64,000 nt of DNA from NCBI GenBank assembly GCA_009773395.1, contig WRPI01000001.1:186001-250000 (forward strand). The letters are read 5' to 3'. This DNA is from Hyphomonadaceae bacterium (lineage in GTDB: Bacteria > Pseudomonadota > Alphaproteobacteria > Caulobacterales > Aquidulcibacteraceae). Position numbers and translations under genes: made by a program. Each line of letters opens with the position of its first letter. Position 1 is the stretch's first letter. Under the pieces are notes generated by a model that was given only the letters and a program-made list of their open reading frames with translations, had not been told where the DNA came from and did not search any database. Of this stretch, positions 30,105 through 38,272 are shown one piece after another.

Positions 30105-31154
30105 CTAACTTCTTGGCGCGCTCATTGGTGAAAGGGCTTCAACCACACCAGCTTGACGAGCACGTTCTGCGGCTGGCAATGGCACCATTCCACGGCCGCG
30201 AAGATAGCCACGAGCACCTGCTGCGCCTTCTGACATGAACTCGGTTGCGAATTCTTTAATGCCAGGAACTACGCCAATATTTTGCTTCTTAATGTAGAAA
30301 TATAATGAACGCGAAATTGGATAGCTGCTGTCCGAAATTGAAGCAAATGTCGGCTGGCGGCCATTGATAGTTGCGGCTTGAACCCGATCCATATTTTCTT
30401 CAAAGAATGAGAAACCAAATATACCAAGTTGATTTGGATTGCGTGCCAAAGTTTGAACAATCAAATTGTCATTTTCGCCAGCATCTTTCCAAGCGCCATC
30501 TTCGCGGATTGAAGTCGCTAAGCGCTTAAATTGGGCTTCGTTGTTTGAGCGAAGATTATCCATTTGCGCAAAACTGCGAGCACCGACTTCCATCACCAAT
30601 TCGGCAAAAGCATCGCGTGTTCCCGAAGTTGGCGGTGGGCCCATTACGTCGATAGGCAGATTTGGAAGGCTTGGGTCAATTTGGTTCCAAGTTCTGAATG
30701 GGTTTGGAATCATACGTCCGCGCTGAGGGATTTGTTTAGCCAAAGCCATATAAAGCTGCATACGCGTCAAGTTGAAATCTGGGCCATTTTTCGAGTTTGA
30801 AACCACAATGCCGTCGTAACCGATTTTAACTTCAACAATTTCGCGGACGCCATTGCGTGCACAAGATTGGTATTCAGACAATTTCATTTTGCGTGATGCA
30901 TTGGTAATGTCTGGATGGCTTACGCCAACACCGCGACAGAAAACCGACATACCGCCGCCAGTGCCCGTTGATTCAACTTTTGGCGTTGGAAATTGGCCGC
31001 GTGAACCAAATTGCTCAGCAACTGCCGAAGAAAATGGAAATACGGTTGATGAGCCAACAATTGAGATTTTGTCACGACCAGCGGCAGCAGCCACAAGCCC
31101 CAACATACTGACAACAACAAAGCCAATTGTCGCTAATTTGAATGATTTTTTCAT
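30105..31154 (-). CDS. pstS: Phosphate ABC transporter substrate-binding protein PstS
   Basis: 349 aa periplasmic phosphate-binding protein. A signal peptide (about residues 1-24) precedes ISIVGSSTVFPFSSAVAEQF and ESTGTGGGMSVFCRG, which supply phosphate-binding loop residues, and later PPPTSGTRDAFAELV. No pstC, pstA or pstB follows, so the transport partners lie elsewhere. It lies 81 nt after the phosphate-selective-type porin and is probably in the same transcript. Confidence 0.93.
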   Translation of the reverse strand: MKKSFKLATIGFVVVSMLGLVAAAAGRDKISIVGSSTVFPFSSAVAEQFGSRGQFPTPKVESTGTGGGMSVFCRGVGVSHPDITNASRKMKLSEYQSCARNGVREIVEVKIGYDGIVVSNSKNGPDFNLTRMQLYMALAKQIPQRGRMIPNPFRTWNQIDPSLPNLPIDVMGPPPTSGTRDAFAELVMEVGARSFAQMDNLRSNNEAQFKRLATSIREDGAWKDAGENDNLIVQTLARNPNQLGIFGFSFFEENMDRVQAATINGRQPTFASISDSSYPISRSLYFYIKKQNIGVVPGIKEFATEFMSEGAAGARGYLRGRGMVPLPAAERARQAGVVEALSPMSAPRS

Positions 31155-31235: not shown

Positions 31236-32513
31236 TTAGAAGCTAAATTGGGTGCGAATGGTAAAGGTTTGCGCGTCGCCATTACCAGTAATCTGGGTAG
31301 CGGCCGCCGAATCAATACCTTGGGTGTCTTTGAAATCAGTATAGCCGTAAGTTGCACGGAAAATAACAAAATCAGTTGGCTGCCACAACACGCCTATTGA
31401 ATAAGCGTCGGCTGAACCGCCAGCAGTGCGCCAAGCCGATGTTGTCGCCGCCGCTTTACCCAATGTGCCGTCTGACAAATCCAAGGTGTCATAACGACCG
31501 ACAATTGCCCAAGCGCCATAACCACCTTCTTGAAGTGGTGAATTTGGTTTCACACCTGAAATAGTGCCAGAATTTGCACTATAGCCACGAGTTTCGCCAG
31601 TTAGGAAATATGAAAGCTCAATATAGCCACCGCTGAAAGTCAAATCTTCAACCAAAGTTTTAGCTTCAAGAATTTGATATTCCGCAACTGCAGTGAATGA
31701 GCCTTTTGAGAACAAGCCTTCAATGCCATAAGTTGTGTCTTTTTGACCAATTGAGCCTGTGCTCAAGAAAGACGAACCATAATTGGTTTGCACTGGACGT
31801 GATGAATATGAAAACGCGCCACTTTGATTGCGATCGCGATATCTTACGCTTGCACCAACATGCGCAATATTGCCGCGAGCCGCTGAAAATGCGTATGAGC
31901 CGCGCAATTCACCAATTCTTGCTTCGGTGGTGTTATTGGATTCGTTATTATTGATGCTGTCGCCATAAAAGCCGCCAGTGATTTGCCAGTTGTCCGAATA
32001 TTTGCGAACATTGACACCCATGTGACGCGAAGCACGACCGAAAGTGTTGGTTACAAGCGCGCGCTCGTTAGTTAAATGAACGGTTGAAGATGTGAAACCA
32101 TCAAGAGTGGTGTTAACATAATTATTACCAATCCAGACCGACATGCCATTTGGTGCATATTCAAGGTATATGTCTTCCCAAGTAGCTTGTGAGCCCAAGA
32201 AAGTTGCTTCCGCGCGGAATTTGAAAACTTCGTTGAATTTGCCATCAACACCCAAACGTGCGCGGCGTGTGCCGAAGCCTGATGAGCTTGCATCACGAGT
32301 AGTGCCGCCGAAATCTGCATCAATTGAATATGCATCAGCCATAAGGCGGCCACGCAATTTGAACTGGAATTGACCGTCATCGGTAGTCCAGCGCGGCGAA
32401 CCAGTTGACCAATCAACTGCTGTATTTACTGTGTTTTGCGCTTGCGCAGAACTTGCTGCACAACTTAGCGCGAGGACGGATGCGGCCAAAGCGGCTTTAA
32501 ATTTGAATTTCAT
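31236..32513 (-). CDS. Porin, OprP/OprO phosphate-selective family
   Basis: 425 aa outer membrane beta-barrel. Signal peptide MKFKFKAALAAS... ends near SSAQA (residue about 25). The mature start DWSTGSPRWTTDDGQFQFKLRGRL and following alternating beta strands fit the phosphate-selective porin O/P family, and the protein ends in Phe (TIRTQFSF) as required for BAM insertion. The ATG at 32513 follows GGGGA. Located just before pstS and after a putative Pho box, which supports a phosphate role, though members of this family also pass other anions. Confidence 0.9.
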   Translation of the reverse strand: MKFKFKAALAASVLALSCAASSAQAQNTVNTAVDWSTGSPRWTTDDGQFQFKLRGRLMADAYSIDADFGGTTRDASSSGFGTRRARLGVDGKFNEVFKFRAEATFLGSQATWEDIYLEYAPNGMSVWIGNNYVNTTLDGFTSSTVHLTNERALVTNTFGRASRHMGVNVRKYSDNWQITGGFYGDSINNNESNNTTEARIGELRGSYAFSAARGNIAHVGASVRYRDRNQSGAFSYSSRPVQTNYGSSFLSTGSIGQKDTTYGIEGLFSKGSFTAVAEYQILEAKTLVEDLTFSGGYIELSYFLTGETRGYSANSGTISGVKPNSPLQEGGYGAWAIVGRYDTLDLSDGTLGKAAATTSAWRTAGGSADAYSIGVLWQPTDFVIFRATYGYTDFKDTQGIDSAAATQITGNGDAQTFTIRTQFSF

Positions 32514-32599
32514 ATTTTTCCCCATTATAGATTGCGCAGCATACTGATTATCAGTGAGTTGGTGCGTTCAATCCTTAACAGGTCGTATAGAAGCCGATT

Positions 32600-32911: not shown

Positions 32912-33718
32912 TTACACCAATCTTGATCGCATCACTTGTGACAAAAGGTCAATTAAACTGACGGCGATTGCAATTACGATAACAATTGCCGAAGTTTCTT
33001 CATATTTGAAAGCATTGATACTTTCGAACAAATTCTGTCCGATGCCGCCTGCCCCGATTAAACCCAAAACTGTTGCCGAGCGCGCATTTGATTCGAAGCG
33101 ATAGAGGGCAAAGCTGGTCCATAGTGGTGCAACTTGGGGCAAGACACCCCATTTAATCTCGTGAAGTTTCGCGGCGCCAGTTGCCCGCACGCCTTCAACT
33201 GGGCGGCTGTCGGTTGCCTCTACTGCCTCCGAAAATAACTTCCCCAAAACCCCTGCTGTGTTGAATGCAAGCGCCAACACCCCTGCCAATGGGCCCAAAC
33301 CAACTGCGACCAAAAATATTGTCCCCATTACCAATGAGTCAATTGAGCGCAAAATATCCATAACCCGGCGCATGGGTAAAACTAACCAAGCCGGTGACAC
33401 GTTTGATGCGCAAGCAAAACCCAAAGGAATTGCCAAAATCACCGCAAAAAAAGTGCCCCATAGTGCAATTTGCACGGTTAACCACATAGCTTTGGCATAG
33501 GCTTGCCAATCATCAAAATTGGGGCGCAAAAACTCAGCTGAAAACGTCTGCATATTTTCCGAGTTTTGGAACAATAATGGCAGTTTGTATAATTCGACCG
33601 GGACAAAACTTATGGTCAATAATAGTGCAACACCGCCCCACACCATGAGATCAAATAGCTTGTCGGATACGGAGCGTGTGGGTGGCGTAAGATCGATAGT
33701 GGTTGCGGCCTCGGTCAT
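32912..33718 (-). CDS. phnE: Phosphonate ABC transporter permease PhnE
   Basis: 268 aa inner membrane permease with about six TM helices. The cytoplasmic coupling region EAVEATDSRPVEGVRATGAAKLHEIKWGVLPQ contains the EAA loop, and GLIGAGGIGQNLFESI is typical of PhnE. It is coupled to the PhnC-PhnD fusion gene by a TAATG one-base overlap. Together they would make a complete importer for phosphonate or phosphite. No C-P lyase, phosphonatase or phosphite dehydrogenase gene is in the window. Confidence 0.93.
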   Translation of the reverse strand: MTEAATTIDLTPPTRSVSDKLFDLMVWGGVALLLTISFVPVELYKLPLLFQNSENMQTFSAEFLRPNFDDWQAYAKAMWLTVQIALWGTFFAVILAIPLGFACASNVSPAWLVLPMRRVMDILRSIDSLVMGTIFLVAVGLGPLAGVLALAFNTAGVLGKLFSEAVEATDSRPVEGVRATGAAKLHEIKWGVLPQVAPLWTSFALYRFESNARSATVLGLIGAGGIGQNLFESINAFKYEETSAIVIVIAIAVSLIDLLSQVMRSRLV

Positions 33719-35634
33719 TATTTATTACCCTTATTGCTTGGGTTAGTCAGTTTCAAAGCTGATTGCGCGCTACTTGCGCTCTCTGGGTCGGTTGGAGTGC
33801 TGGGCAAAAGCGGCGGTGCGTGTAGGGTTTGCGCTTCAGCCTTCAATGCCTCAATTGCATGACTAGCAGCGGCGATTCTCGCGACGTCGCCAGAATTTCT
33901 TGCATTTATCAAGGCTTCGGTTGCTTCCATTTCACGGACAATCATCAAATGCGAATTATTGGCGGGCTGGAACATGCCAAACGAAAGCCCGCGCAAAATA
34001 TCACGTTCACGTGTTTGTTGGGCGGCATCACCTTGGCGGCCATAATTCAAAAAGAACTTGCGGATTTTTTCTTTTTTATCGGCCGATAAATCTTTGCGCC
34101 AAATAATTGGATCTTCGGGTATTGTTGGTGATGTCCAAATAATCCTTACTTTCGCAATTTGCGCTGGATCATCTTTGCCCAACACTTGAAGGCTGGTGGT
34201 ATTATTGGTGGCAACCGGCAAAAGACCAGCAGCGACCGCGCGGAAATTGGCTTCGTGTGAAGCCGATCTAACCGTCCTAAAACACTCGTTGGGGCGGATA
34301 TTGCGCGGTGCAAACAAATAAACCATTGGTACAAGCGTGCCAGAAGTTGAGGCAGAATCGCCCATGCCAAAATCCATAATTTTGCCGCATCTTAAAACAT
34401 CATCGAGCGTAACCGTGGAATCAGATTTGGCGATGAGGATTGATTGATACCCGTCCACCCCTGATGGATCTGAGGAGCGTAAAAAGACTTCGGCCTTCCC
34501 TGACCTTACAGCTTCAAGCCCAGATTTATTGGAAAACCAACCGACTTGGGTCTGCCCATAGGCCATCGCTTGCACCAACCCAGCATAATTGCTTTGAAAA
34601 TATGGCCGAATCGAAAGCCCAGTTTGTTTGCGCATATCTTCAATGAAAGCAGTCCATCTATCTTGCGCATTTTGAGAATTTTCAGTTGAGAGAATTGAGA
34701 AATTGATGTCAGCAGTTTTGACTTGCATTTGGCTATAAAGTGAATACGAGGCCGCCAAAACCAAGCCCGCAGCCAAGCCCCATTGCGCGATTGTCACAAA
34801 TATATTTCCGCCTTGCTTTTTGGCCAATGGCGGCGGCGTTTCTTCCAGTGGTGCCGCGCCGCCGGTTTCTTCATCATATTCGGCACCGTAAATTTCAATA
34901 AGCCTGTCACGGTTGAGGCCCTCTTTGGGCCCATCATAAACAATTTTGCCGGCTTTTAGGGCAACAATCCTGTCACAAAATTTGGTGGCAAAATCGATTT
35001 GATGCAGACATACAACAACGGTTACGCCATCATTTTTGTTCAAATCATCAAGCAATTCCATGACTTTGCGCGCCGACACTGGGTCAAGCGATGCCACGGG
35101 TTCATCAAGGAAAATTGCTGCCGCGCCTTGCACCAATGCCCGCGCAATTGCGCCGCGTTGTTGTTGCCCGCCTGACAATAGGTTGGAGCGTTGCGCCGCA
35201 TATTCGGCAACCCCAACCCGCGCCAAAGCTTTCATGCCTACGTCTTGATCCGCCTTGGGCCAGCTTCCCAAAAAACCTTTTAGGAATGGCAAGCGCCCCA
35301 AAGCACCAAGCATTATGTTTTCAAATAGGCTTAAGCGACCAACCAGATTAAATTGTTGAAAAACAAAGCCAACTTTGGAACGCGCTTCACGAACCGTGTC
35401 CGCCAATTCGCCATTTTTTTGGACCGGTATTCCCATCAGGGAAACTTCGCCGCCATCCTTATCGCTTAGCACCAAGCCAGTCGCAATTCGCAAAAGGGTT
35501 GACTTGCCCGAGCCCGACGGCCCAATAAGCCCAACCATTTCGCCTTTTTTTACTTGCAGCGAAACATTGTCCAATGCGCGGCGTCTGCCATAAGTGCGCA
35601 CCAAATTCTTAGCGTTCAAAACCACTTCAGCCAT
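33718..35634 (-). CDS. PhnC-PhnD fusion: ABC ATPase joined to phosphonate-binding domain
   Basis: 638 aa. Residues 1-255 are a complete PhnC-type ATPase: Walker A GPSGSGKST (38-46), Q-loop Gln93, signature LSGGQ (153-157), Walker B AAIFLDEP (172-179), H-loop His211. A Pro/Glu linker leads to one hydrophobic helix (about 278-300, IAQWGLAAGLVLAASYSLY). Residues 305-600 are a PhnD-type substrate-binding domain (SILSTENSQNAQDRW, YAGLVQAMAYGQTQVGWF, GDSASTSGTLVPMVYLF). The helix would act as a signal anchor with ATPase inside and binding domain outside. Normally these are two proteins. The frame is open throughout with no slippery sequence or internal start, so I take it as a true fusion. A Pho-box-like site lies 88-105 bp upstream. 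Confidence 0.93.
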   Translation of the reverse strand: MAEVVLNAKNLVRTYGRRRALDNVSLQVKKGEMVGLIGPSGSGKSTLLRIATGLVLSDKDGGEVSLMGIPVQKNGELADTVREARSKVGFVFQQFNLVGRLSLFENIMLGALGRLPFLKGFLGSWPKADQDVGMKALARVGVAEYAAQRSNLLSGGQQQRGAIARALVQGAAAIFLDEPVASLDPVSARKVMELLDDLNKNDGVTVVVCLHQIDFATKFCDRIVALKAGKIVYDGPKEGLNRDRLIEIYGAEYDEETGGAAPLEETPPPLAKKQGGNIFVTIAQWGLAAGLVLAASYSLYSQMQVKTADINFSILSTENSQNAQDRWTAFIEDMRKQTGLSIRPYFQSNYAGLVQAMAYGQTQVGWFSNKSGLEAVRSGKAEVFLRSSDPSGVDGYQSILIAKSDSTVTLDDVLRCGKIMDFGMGDSASTSGTLVPMVYLFAPRNIRPNECFRTVRSASHEANFRAVAAGLLPVATNNTTSLQVLGKDDPAQIAKVRIIWTSPTIPEDPIIWRKDLSADKKEKIRKFFLNYGRQGDAAQQTRERDILRGLSFGMFQPANNSHLMIVREMEATEALINARNSGDVARIAAASHAIEALKAEAQTLHAPPLLPSTPTDPESASSAQSALKLTNPSNKGNK

Positions 35635-35721: not shown

Positions 35722-35739
35722 ACGACATGGATATGACAA
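35722..35739 (-). promoter_or_regulatory. Putative Pho box upstream of phnC-phnD
   Basis: On the minus strand TTGTCAT and ATGTCGT are exactly 11 bp apart (starts at 35739 and 35728), matching the known PhoB unit CTGTCAT at six and five of seven positions. It lies 88-105 bp before the fusion gene, in the divergent gap with rlmN. It could drive either gene, but a phosphate-starvation role fits only the transporter. Confidence 0.55.
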
Positions 35740-38020: not shown

Positions 38021-38272
38021 TTAAGCAGCCTCAGCTTCATCGTCTGCTTCATCTTCAGATTCGTCAGCTTCATCTTCTTCGTCAGATTCAGCTTCATCTG
38101 TAGATTCTTCAGTTTCATCTTCTGAGTCATCTTCTGAGTCATCGGCTTCGCCTTCTTCGTCGGATTCAGCTTCGGTTTCGTCTAAATCCTCTTCGGCGGC
38201 CAATACATAACCATCCGCGTCAGATTCAATTTCATTGACTTCGATTTCTTCAATCACTTCTTCTTGGGACAT
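38021..38272 (-). CDS. Hyperacidic, probably disordered small protein
   Basis: 83 aa; by my count 47 residues are Asp or Glu (30 E, 17 D) and there is no Lys, Arg or His. The body is made of Ser-Asp/Glu blocks separated by Glu-Ala. It is very likely a real gene: GAGGAGG lies 6-7 bases before the ATG, and a terminator follows. It has no recognisable domain. It sits alone between the unknown gene and pnp. Possible roles are nucleic acid mimicry, a cation buffer or a chaperone for basic proteins; all are guesses. Confidence 0.75.
   Translation of the reverse strand: MSQEEVIEEIEVNEIESDADGYVLAAEEDLDETEAESDEEGEADDSEDDSEDETEESTDEAESDEEDEADESEDEADDEAEAA

Follow-up and report, generated by a model that had tools for sequence, protein, structure and literature searches.

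A clade-conserved PhnC-PhnD fusion in one bacterial family that may carry the receptor of a phosphonate-type ABC importer across the membrane on its ATPase chain

ATPases joined to receptor-related domains are already known among ABC importers, the closest described cases being the cyanobacterial proteins NrtC and CmpC, in which an N-terminal ABC ATPase is followed in the same chain by a C-terminal domain related to binding proteins; the source papers describe this domain as cytosolic and regulatory (PMC6603209, PMC11349869). An earlier note on the DNA analysed here had stated that ATPase and receptor are separate in known ABC importers, which, given these proteins, is too strong. The trans-membrane version of such a fusion proposed below is still distinct, precisely because NrtC and CmpC are described there as cytosolic and regulatory. 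A second kind of covalent linkage is represented by OpuA and GlnPQ, whose receptor domains are joined to the permease. Among exporter-type proteins, MacB combines an N-terminal ATPase, a membrane helix and a periplasmic domain in one chain. No report of an ATPase-receptor fusion across the membrane was found in the open-access literature on PhnC-PhnD or ATPase-receptor fusions, PhnCDE structures and the phn genes of Hyphomonadaceae.

The locus described here lies in a 64,000-nucleotide stretch of Hyphomonadaceae DNA, hereafter the window, and consists of the following features:

33718..35634, minus strand: phnC-phnD fusion gene of 638 codons (ORF, Pfam, NCBIfam)
34885..35634, minus strand: PhnC-like ATPase domain, residues 1-250 (Pfam ABC_tran, TIGR02315, structure matches)
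34804..34884, minus strand: linker, residues 251-277, with an acidic start and predicted to be cytosolic (low confidence in the model; conserved motif)
34729..34803, minus strand: hydrophobic segment, residues 278-302, proposed membrane helix and uncleaved signal anchor (hydrophobicity, helix in the model)
33820..34713, minus strand: PhnD-like receptor domain, residues 308-605 (Pfam Phosphonate-bd; matches to 3n5l and 3p7i)
32912..33718, minus strand: phnE, a single permease gene (TIGR01097, 288.9 bits, above cut-off)

The fusion frame (33718-35634, minus strand, 638 amino acids) contains zero internal stops in the reading frame of the window. Pfam ABC_tran aligns with residues 21-181, covering all 137 model positions, and Phosphonate-bd with residues 312-562 over model positions 1-241 of 242. 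Walker A (GPSGSGKST, 38-46), signature (LSGGQQQR, 153-160), Walker B (IFLDEP, 174-179) and H-loop (H211) were all found by eye in the PhnC-like domain, and the stop of the fusion overlaps the start of phnE as TAATG. The earlier note had claimed one polypeptide with a complete, motif-intact ATPase, one hydrophobic segment and a complete PhnD-like domain within 638 codons, coupled by TAATG to a single PhnE, and on each of these points its reading holds. Against NCBIfam profiles, the fusion scores 264.9 bits with TIGR02315 (PhnC; cut-off 266.1), which places it at the family level and below the equivalog level, 226.6 bits with TIGR03431 (PhnD), under the equivalog cut-off of 261.1, and 209 bits with TIGR01098 (phosphate/phosphite/phosphonate receptors), above the cut-off of 112. 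An AlphaFold2 model built from 10 sequences (mean pLDDT 72.6, pTM 0.43) reproduces the folds of both domains and places a helix at 280-302, where pLDDT falls below 50. Compared with solved structures by VIA-align, the ATPase domain of the model matches ABC ATPases with Z up to 29.9, and the receptor domain matches the PhnD structures 3n5l (Z 28.5, rmsd 4.5 over 294 residues) and 3p7i (Z 28.1, rmsd 4.2 over 291 residues). A structure search for a solved PhnCDE complex returned, for the window's PhnE, MetI only, and weakly.

Set against PhnCDE of the E. coli type, the locus offers PhnC-, PhnD- and PhnE-like profiles in gene order C-D-E, as found in an E. coli record, a PhnD receptor fold (compare 3n5l and 3p7i) with its pocket residues, Glu177 excepted, and PhnE in the operon. 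It departs from that system in uniting C and D in one chain, in the replacement of Glu177 by Thr and in PhnC and PhnD scores below the equivalog cut-offs; the receptor, a separate periplasmic protein in PhnCDE, is fused in all 15 genes described below. The fusion belongs with the PhnCDE importers by its parts, and not by its architecture. It shares with NrtC and CmpC an N-terminal ABC ATPase and a C-terminal receptor-like domain in one chain, but unlike them it has a hydrophobic segment, and neither a separate receptor nor a second ATPase gene lies beside it. The window does encode a PstS-like protein, which belongs to another family. As in OpuA and GlnPQ, a receptor is covalently tied to the transporter; in the window, however, it is tied to the ATPase, and PhnE is separate. 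MacB resembles the fusion in domain layout and is matched by the model in Foldseek, but has a different periplasmic domain, more membrane helices and no import receptor.

Several relatives carry phnC and phnD in one frame with a single stop codon between them, so that one wrong base could fuse two genes, and a sequencing or assembly artefact had therefore to be considered. When 60 genomes of the window's family were searched, the 15 that matched at 1e-60 all proved to have the fusion unbroken, one of them in a single 3.5-Mb contig. Because all of these genomes are fused, with no stop between the domains in any, a sequencing slip is refuted in practice, and we assign an artefact a virtually negligible probability. 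Fusions were called only from open reading frames cut at stop codons, and a public record (L064) and a member of the genus (G003) were counted as one fusion. Six selected pairs of fusion genes show more synonymous than amino-acid change per site, in the linker (uncorrected pN 0.01-0.26 versus pS 0.43-0.77) as well as in both domains, and the linker evolves faster than the ATPase domain, as expected of a spacer; its YGAE-DEE motif is invariant across 14 aligned fusions. The architecture as first read from the window is a real, clade-conserved chain of ATPase, segment and receptor.

The fusion occurs in 15 of the 60 family genomes, from 4 of 14 genera. A sample of 398 genomes of the order gave 141 matching genomes at 1e-60, and the PhnC-PhnD fusions among the loci opened are the family's 15 only; a sixteenth one-row match in the order (G560) turned out to have a TAG separating the domains. 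In the class, a PhnD domain was detected at 1e-40 in 33 of 385 genomes, and of the 30 loci opened, PhnC is a separate protein in 28 and part of a fusion in the window's own, and the remaining one, L036 from G400, is truncated by a contig that ends before any phnC. The phylum sample gave 46 matching genomes out of 398, of which three are fused, all from the window's family, and the loci opened from 10 others outside the order are all split. Among the matches listed from public genomes, which comprise at least 562 confirmed relatives, 80 loci were opened; a PhnD-like frame is present in 46 and is fused to PhnC in L064 alone. Of 25 matching plasmid records, three were opened and are all split, the others being judged from the listing alone, and none of 104 pattern matches in viral contigs encodes a relative. 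The survey of PhnC-PhnD architectures across genomes, which the earlier note had suggested as a check, thus found the fusion in 15 genomes of the family and none outside it among the loci opened from the order, class, phylum, public-genome and plasmid searches. Further candidates dissolved into two genes upon inspection: the one-row matches G560, G1047, G1009, G1111, G1043 and G1027, and the same-frame pairs of G969 and G088, each have one or two in-frame stops.

The same-frame pairs with a single intervening stop make the loss of one stop codon a simple origin for the fusion. In a tree of 86 receptor domains, from which two PhnD-PhnE rows cut by the end of their locus (L023, L024) were left out, the PhnC-PhnD fusion needs one change (support 100/99) and PhnD-PhnE fusions need two. 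By this tree, the PhnC-PhnD fusion arose once, and the PhnD-PhnE fusion has two origins unless the root falls inside the PhnD-PhnE clade.

The hydrophobic segment is the feature on which the topology of the chain turns. In the window's fusion, hydrophobicity peaks at residues 278-296 with a mean Kyte-Doolittle value of 1.78, the next best place reaching 1.14. The most hydrophobic 19 residues of the chain sit in the linker in all 15 fusions (peak means of 1.17-2.16, compared with 0.90-1.14 elsewhere). In one genus the segment's hydrophobicity is no more than moderate (seven of the eight fusions there have 1.17-1.43), and a Gln-Trp pair lies within the segment in most. Net charge over 12 residues on each flank favours an N-in orientation in 13 of 15, the reverse being seen in L005 and L006. 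Since the ATPase must be cytosolic, one membrane pass would place the receptor outside, and judging from these sequences the fusion most likely passes the membrane once with its receptor domain on the far side.

Two cysteines of the receptor domain, encoded as follows, bear on the same question:

34387..34389, minus strand: codon of Cys416, first half of a proposed disulfide (cysteine co-occurrence)
34282..34284, minus strand: codon of Cys451, second half of the proposed disulfide (cysteine co-occurrence)

In 151 homologues, which are related rather than independent rows (151 of 152, one of the two L081 rows being left out), their equivalents are both present in 85 and both absent in 64, with 2 exceptions. 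L023 and L024 were counted as split rows here, as in the pocket and cleavage-site counts that follow. The pair is kept in all 15 fusions, where its members are the sole cysteines of the aligned receptor domain. A disulfide is expected in the periplasm and not in the cytosol; because the all-or-none pair fits a disulfide, it argues for a periplasmic receptor domain.

The same observations weigh on a different reading, in which the receptor-like domain would stay in the cytosol, sense internal phosphorus compounds and gate the ATPase, much as in NrtC and CmpC. Known fusions of equal domain order are so described (PMC6603209, PMC11349869), and Foldseek aligns the model with CmpC and NrtC over 607 and 586 columns. 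That full-length match is nevertheless weak (TM about 0.31, rmsd 22.7 and 24.6), and MacB matches likewise; in the VIA-align comparison, NrtC and CmpC are absent among the best 50 entries listed, single ATPase domains filling the list. The transporters of the cyanobacterial regulators, moreover, also contain a distinct binding protein and another ATPase (NrtA/NrtD, CmpA/CmpD; PMC6603209, PMC11349869), whereas neither the window nor the 14 kb surrounding the fusion of another genome (G033) contains a second PhnC- or PhnD-like frame. Together with a segment kept in 15 of 15 fusions and an all-or-none cysteine pair, both hard to explain in the cytosol, this leaves a cytosolic regulator very unlikely in our estimation, and a receptor held outside by a membrane helix the preferred reading.

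Such a helix might still be lost to processing if the segment were an internal signal peptide at which signal peptidase cuts, so that the ATPase and PhnD would separate in a fixed ratio. The arguments for and against are rules of thumb. The segment does occupy the place of the signal peptide in separate PhnD proteins; an invariant Ala directly precedes the receptor domain, within a Val-x-Ala in seven fusions of one genus; and L007 and L008 carry Met-Ala-Ala-Cys inside the segment, flagged by a lipobox rule. Yet Lys or Glu occupies position -3 to the invariant Ala in eight of the 15 fusions, the window's included, and Val in the other 7, about 8-9 mostly polar or charged residues intervene between the hydrophobic core and this Ala, and Ala-x-Ala, by a crude rule, is found in 70 of 108 split rows versus 3 of 15 fusions, in which it sits inside the hydrophobic core. 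Under the loosest -3/-1 rule, a site turns up somewhere in all 15 fusions and in split rows alike, so that this rule does not discriminate. A processed polyprotein appears rather improbable on this evidence, and a chain that stays uncleaved is favoured. Nor does an internal start in the linker, yielding free PhnD alongside the fusion with the segment as its signal peptide, agree well with the gene family: the window's gene offers an in-frame TTG at codon 270 and a GTG at codon 280, but no start position is conserved, Shine-Dalgarno-like matches do not exceed 5 bases, and in 6 of 14 fusions the stretch from the start of the linker (about 248) to residue 281 lacks any in-frame ATG, GTG or TTG. 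Free PhnD from such a start is unlikely, and a dual product is an explanation to which we give scarcely any weight.

With regard to the cargo of the importer, we take the pocket of E. coli PhnD to comprise Tyr47, Tyr93, Ser127, Thr128, His157, Glu177 and Asp205, letters that fit the aligned structure sequence. All 15 fusions retain the equivalents of Tyr47, Tyr93, Ser127, Thr128, His157 and Asp205, and all have Thr in place of Glu177. The latter position is Thr in 26 and Val in 3 of 29 PhnD-PhnE fusions, and Glu in 66 of 107 split rows. Replacement of Glu177 would therefore weaken the fit of aminophosphonates, and the residues of the pocket point to phosphate, phosphite or an alkylphosphonate as the probable cargo, in preference to 2-aminoethylphosphonate. 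A parallel is offered by PhnD1 of a marine cyanobacterium, whose ligands include phosphite, phosphate and methylphosphonate and for which a role in phosphate uptake has been proposed (PMC10284923).

The surroundings of the fusion operon contain additional phosphate-related genes and a putative regulatory site:

31236..32525, minus strand: phosphate-selective porin O/P family gene, context (Pfam PF07396)
30105..31154, minus strand: PstS-like phosphate-binding protein gene, context (Pfam PF12849; TIGR02136, 140.3 bits, cut-off 206.6)
35722..35739, minus strand: Pho-box-like direct repeat TTGTCAT-ATCC-ATGTCGT upstream of the fusion (11 of 14 positions)

The porin and PstS neighbours were not seen in the 14 kb around the G033 fusion. 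Elsewhere in the window, an 83-codon open reading frame (38021-38272, minus strand) is composed mainly of acidic residues along with Ser and Ala. Taken by itself, the window's Pho-box-like site is no better than chance, and the window as a whole has no excess of such sites. Across the 15 fusion loci, a site of this kind recurs in 13, with 10-12 of 14 positions, on the same strand and 81-105 bases upstream; in 11 of these 13, at most 6 of 200 shuffles preserving base composition only reach the score, and the counts for the other two are 35 and 39 of 200. The two remaining loci (L016, L017) have no site better than shuffles. The same test on nine loci from relatives that are unfused or have the PhnD-PhnE fusion gave a fair site in L165 alone (14 of 200 shuffles). 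The recurrence of the site suggests that phosphate starvation probably raises transcription of the fusion operon.

Among the several ways in which PhnD seems to be tied down in this order, the PhnC fusion is the most unusual. In a sister family (f4), 35 genomes match and PhnD is fused to PhnE in all 29 that were opened; the same fusion is found in two genomes of another sister family (f3), G038 and G465, for a total of 31 opened genomes. These PhnD-PhnE proteins are closer in kind to OpuA and GlnPQ than the PhnC-PhnD fusion is. Examples include L165:5227-7296 on the minus strand (G043), L187-L210, L212-L216, L163 and L172; a lipobox stands at the start of some of these fusions and a signal peptide at that of others. 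The layout in G043 mirrors that of the window, with a glycosyltransferase, PstS-like protein, porin, PhnE-PhnD and PhnC. By a strict rule, which was written after the result of a looser one (24 of 26 versus 5 of 80) was known, a lipobox is present in 23 of 26 split PhnD rows from the order and in 0 of 80 from outside it; L023 and L024 were set apart in the strict count, and L075, which groups with f3 in the tree, was counted with the order. Rows with a lipobox include L018, L019, L021, L022, L145, L147 and L149-L159. PhnD thus seems, from these sequence features, to be membrane-tied through most of the order by different means, namely a lipobox, fusion to PhnE or fusion to PhnC.

The window's genome encodes a second phosphonate importer (G000:C4, 203-217 kb; L160, L166), about 9 kb before the C-P lyase gene phnJ, with a PhnD bearing a lipobox and a PhnN-like kinase (both recognized by eye), two PhnE, a PhnC and a further PhnD-like protein, which scores 58.7 bits with Pfam and matches nothing in NCBIfam at 1e-10. 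Another variation is seen in L081, where two adjacent PhnD genes (39% and 37% identity to the window's) lie between one phnC and one phnE.

We consider it likely that the locus encodes a working PhnCDE-type importer with ATPase and receptor in one chain and the receptor pinned across the membrane, because the segment and the cysteine pair are each kept in 15 of 15 fusions, the pocket is kept, a Pho-box-like site accompanies 13 of 15 and no second PhnC- or PhnD-like frame lies in the window. The ATPase domain would reside in the cytosol, paired with PhnE, and the linker would run into one uncleaved N-in/C-out helix descended from the signal peptide of a once-separate PhnD, beyond which the PhnD domain would fold in the periplasm with one disulfide and act as the receptor of the operon. 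Most simply, two fusion chains and two PhnE would form a transporter with two permanently tethered receptors. Tethering may work as in OpuA, through a high local concentration of receptor, but via the ATPase instead of the permease. With somewhat less assurance, we think that this would be the first ABC importer with an extracytoplasmic receptor carried on the ATPase chain by a helix of its own, and one of three ways of pinning PhnD within the order.

If this is true, the nucleotide-driven motor and the substrate-loading receptor would be mechanically joined on both sides of the membrane, and the usual split between a motor inside and a receptor outside, on separate chains, would be broken by the fusion. 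The protein would then be a natural single-chain construct with which to ask if receptor and ATPase communicate. The repeated tethering of PhnD in one order further raises the question of why a receptor should be tied down, which may be addressed by comparing close relatives.
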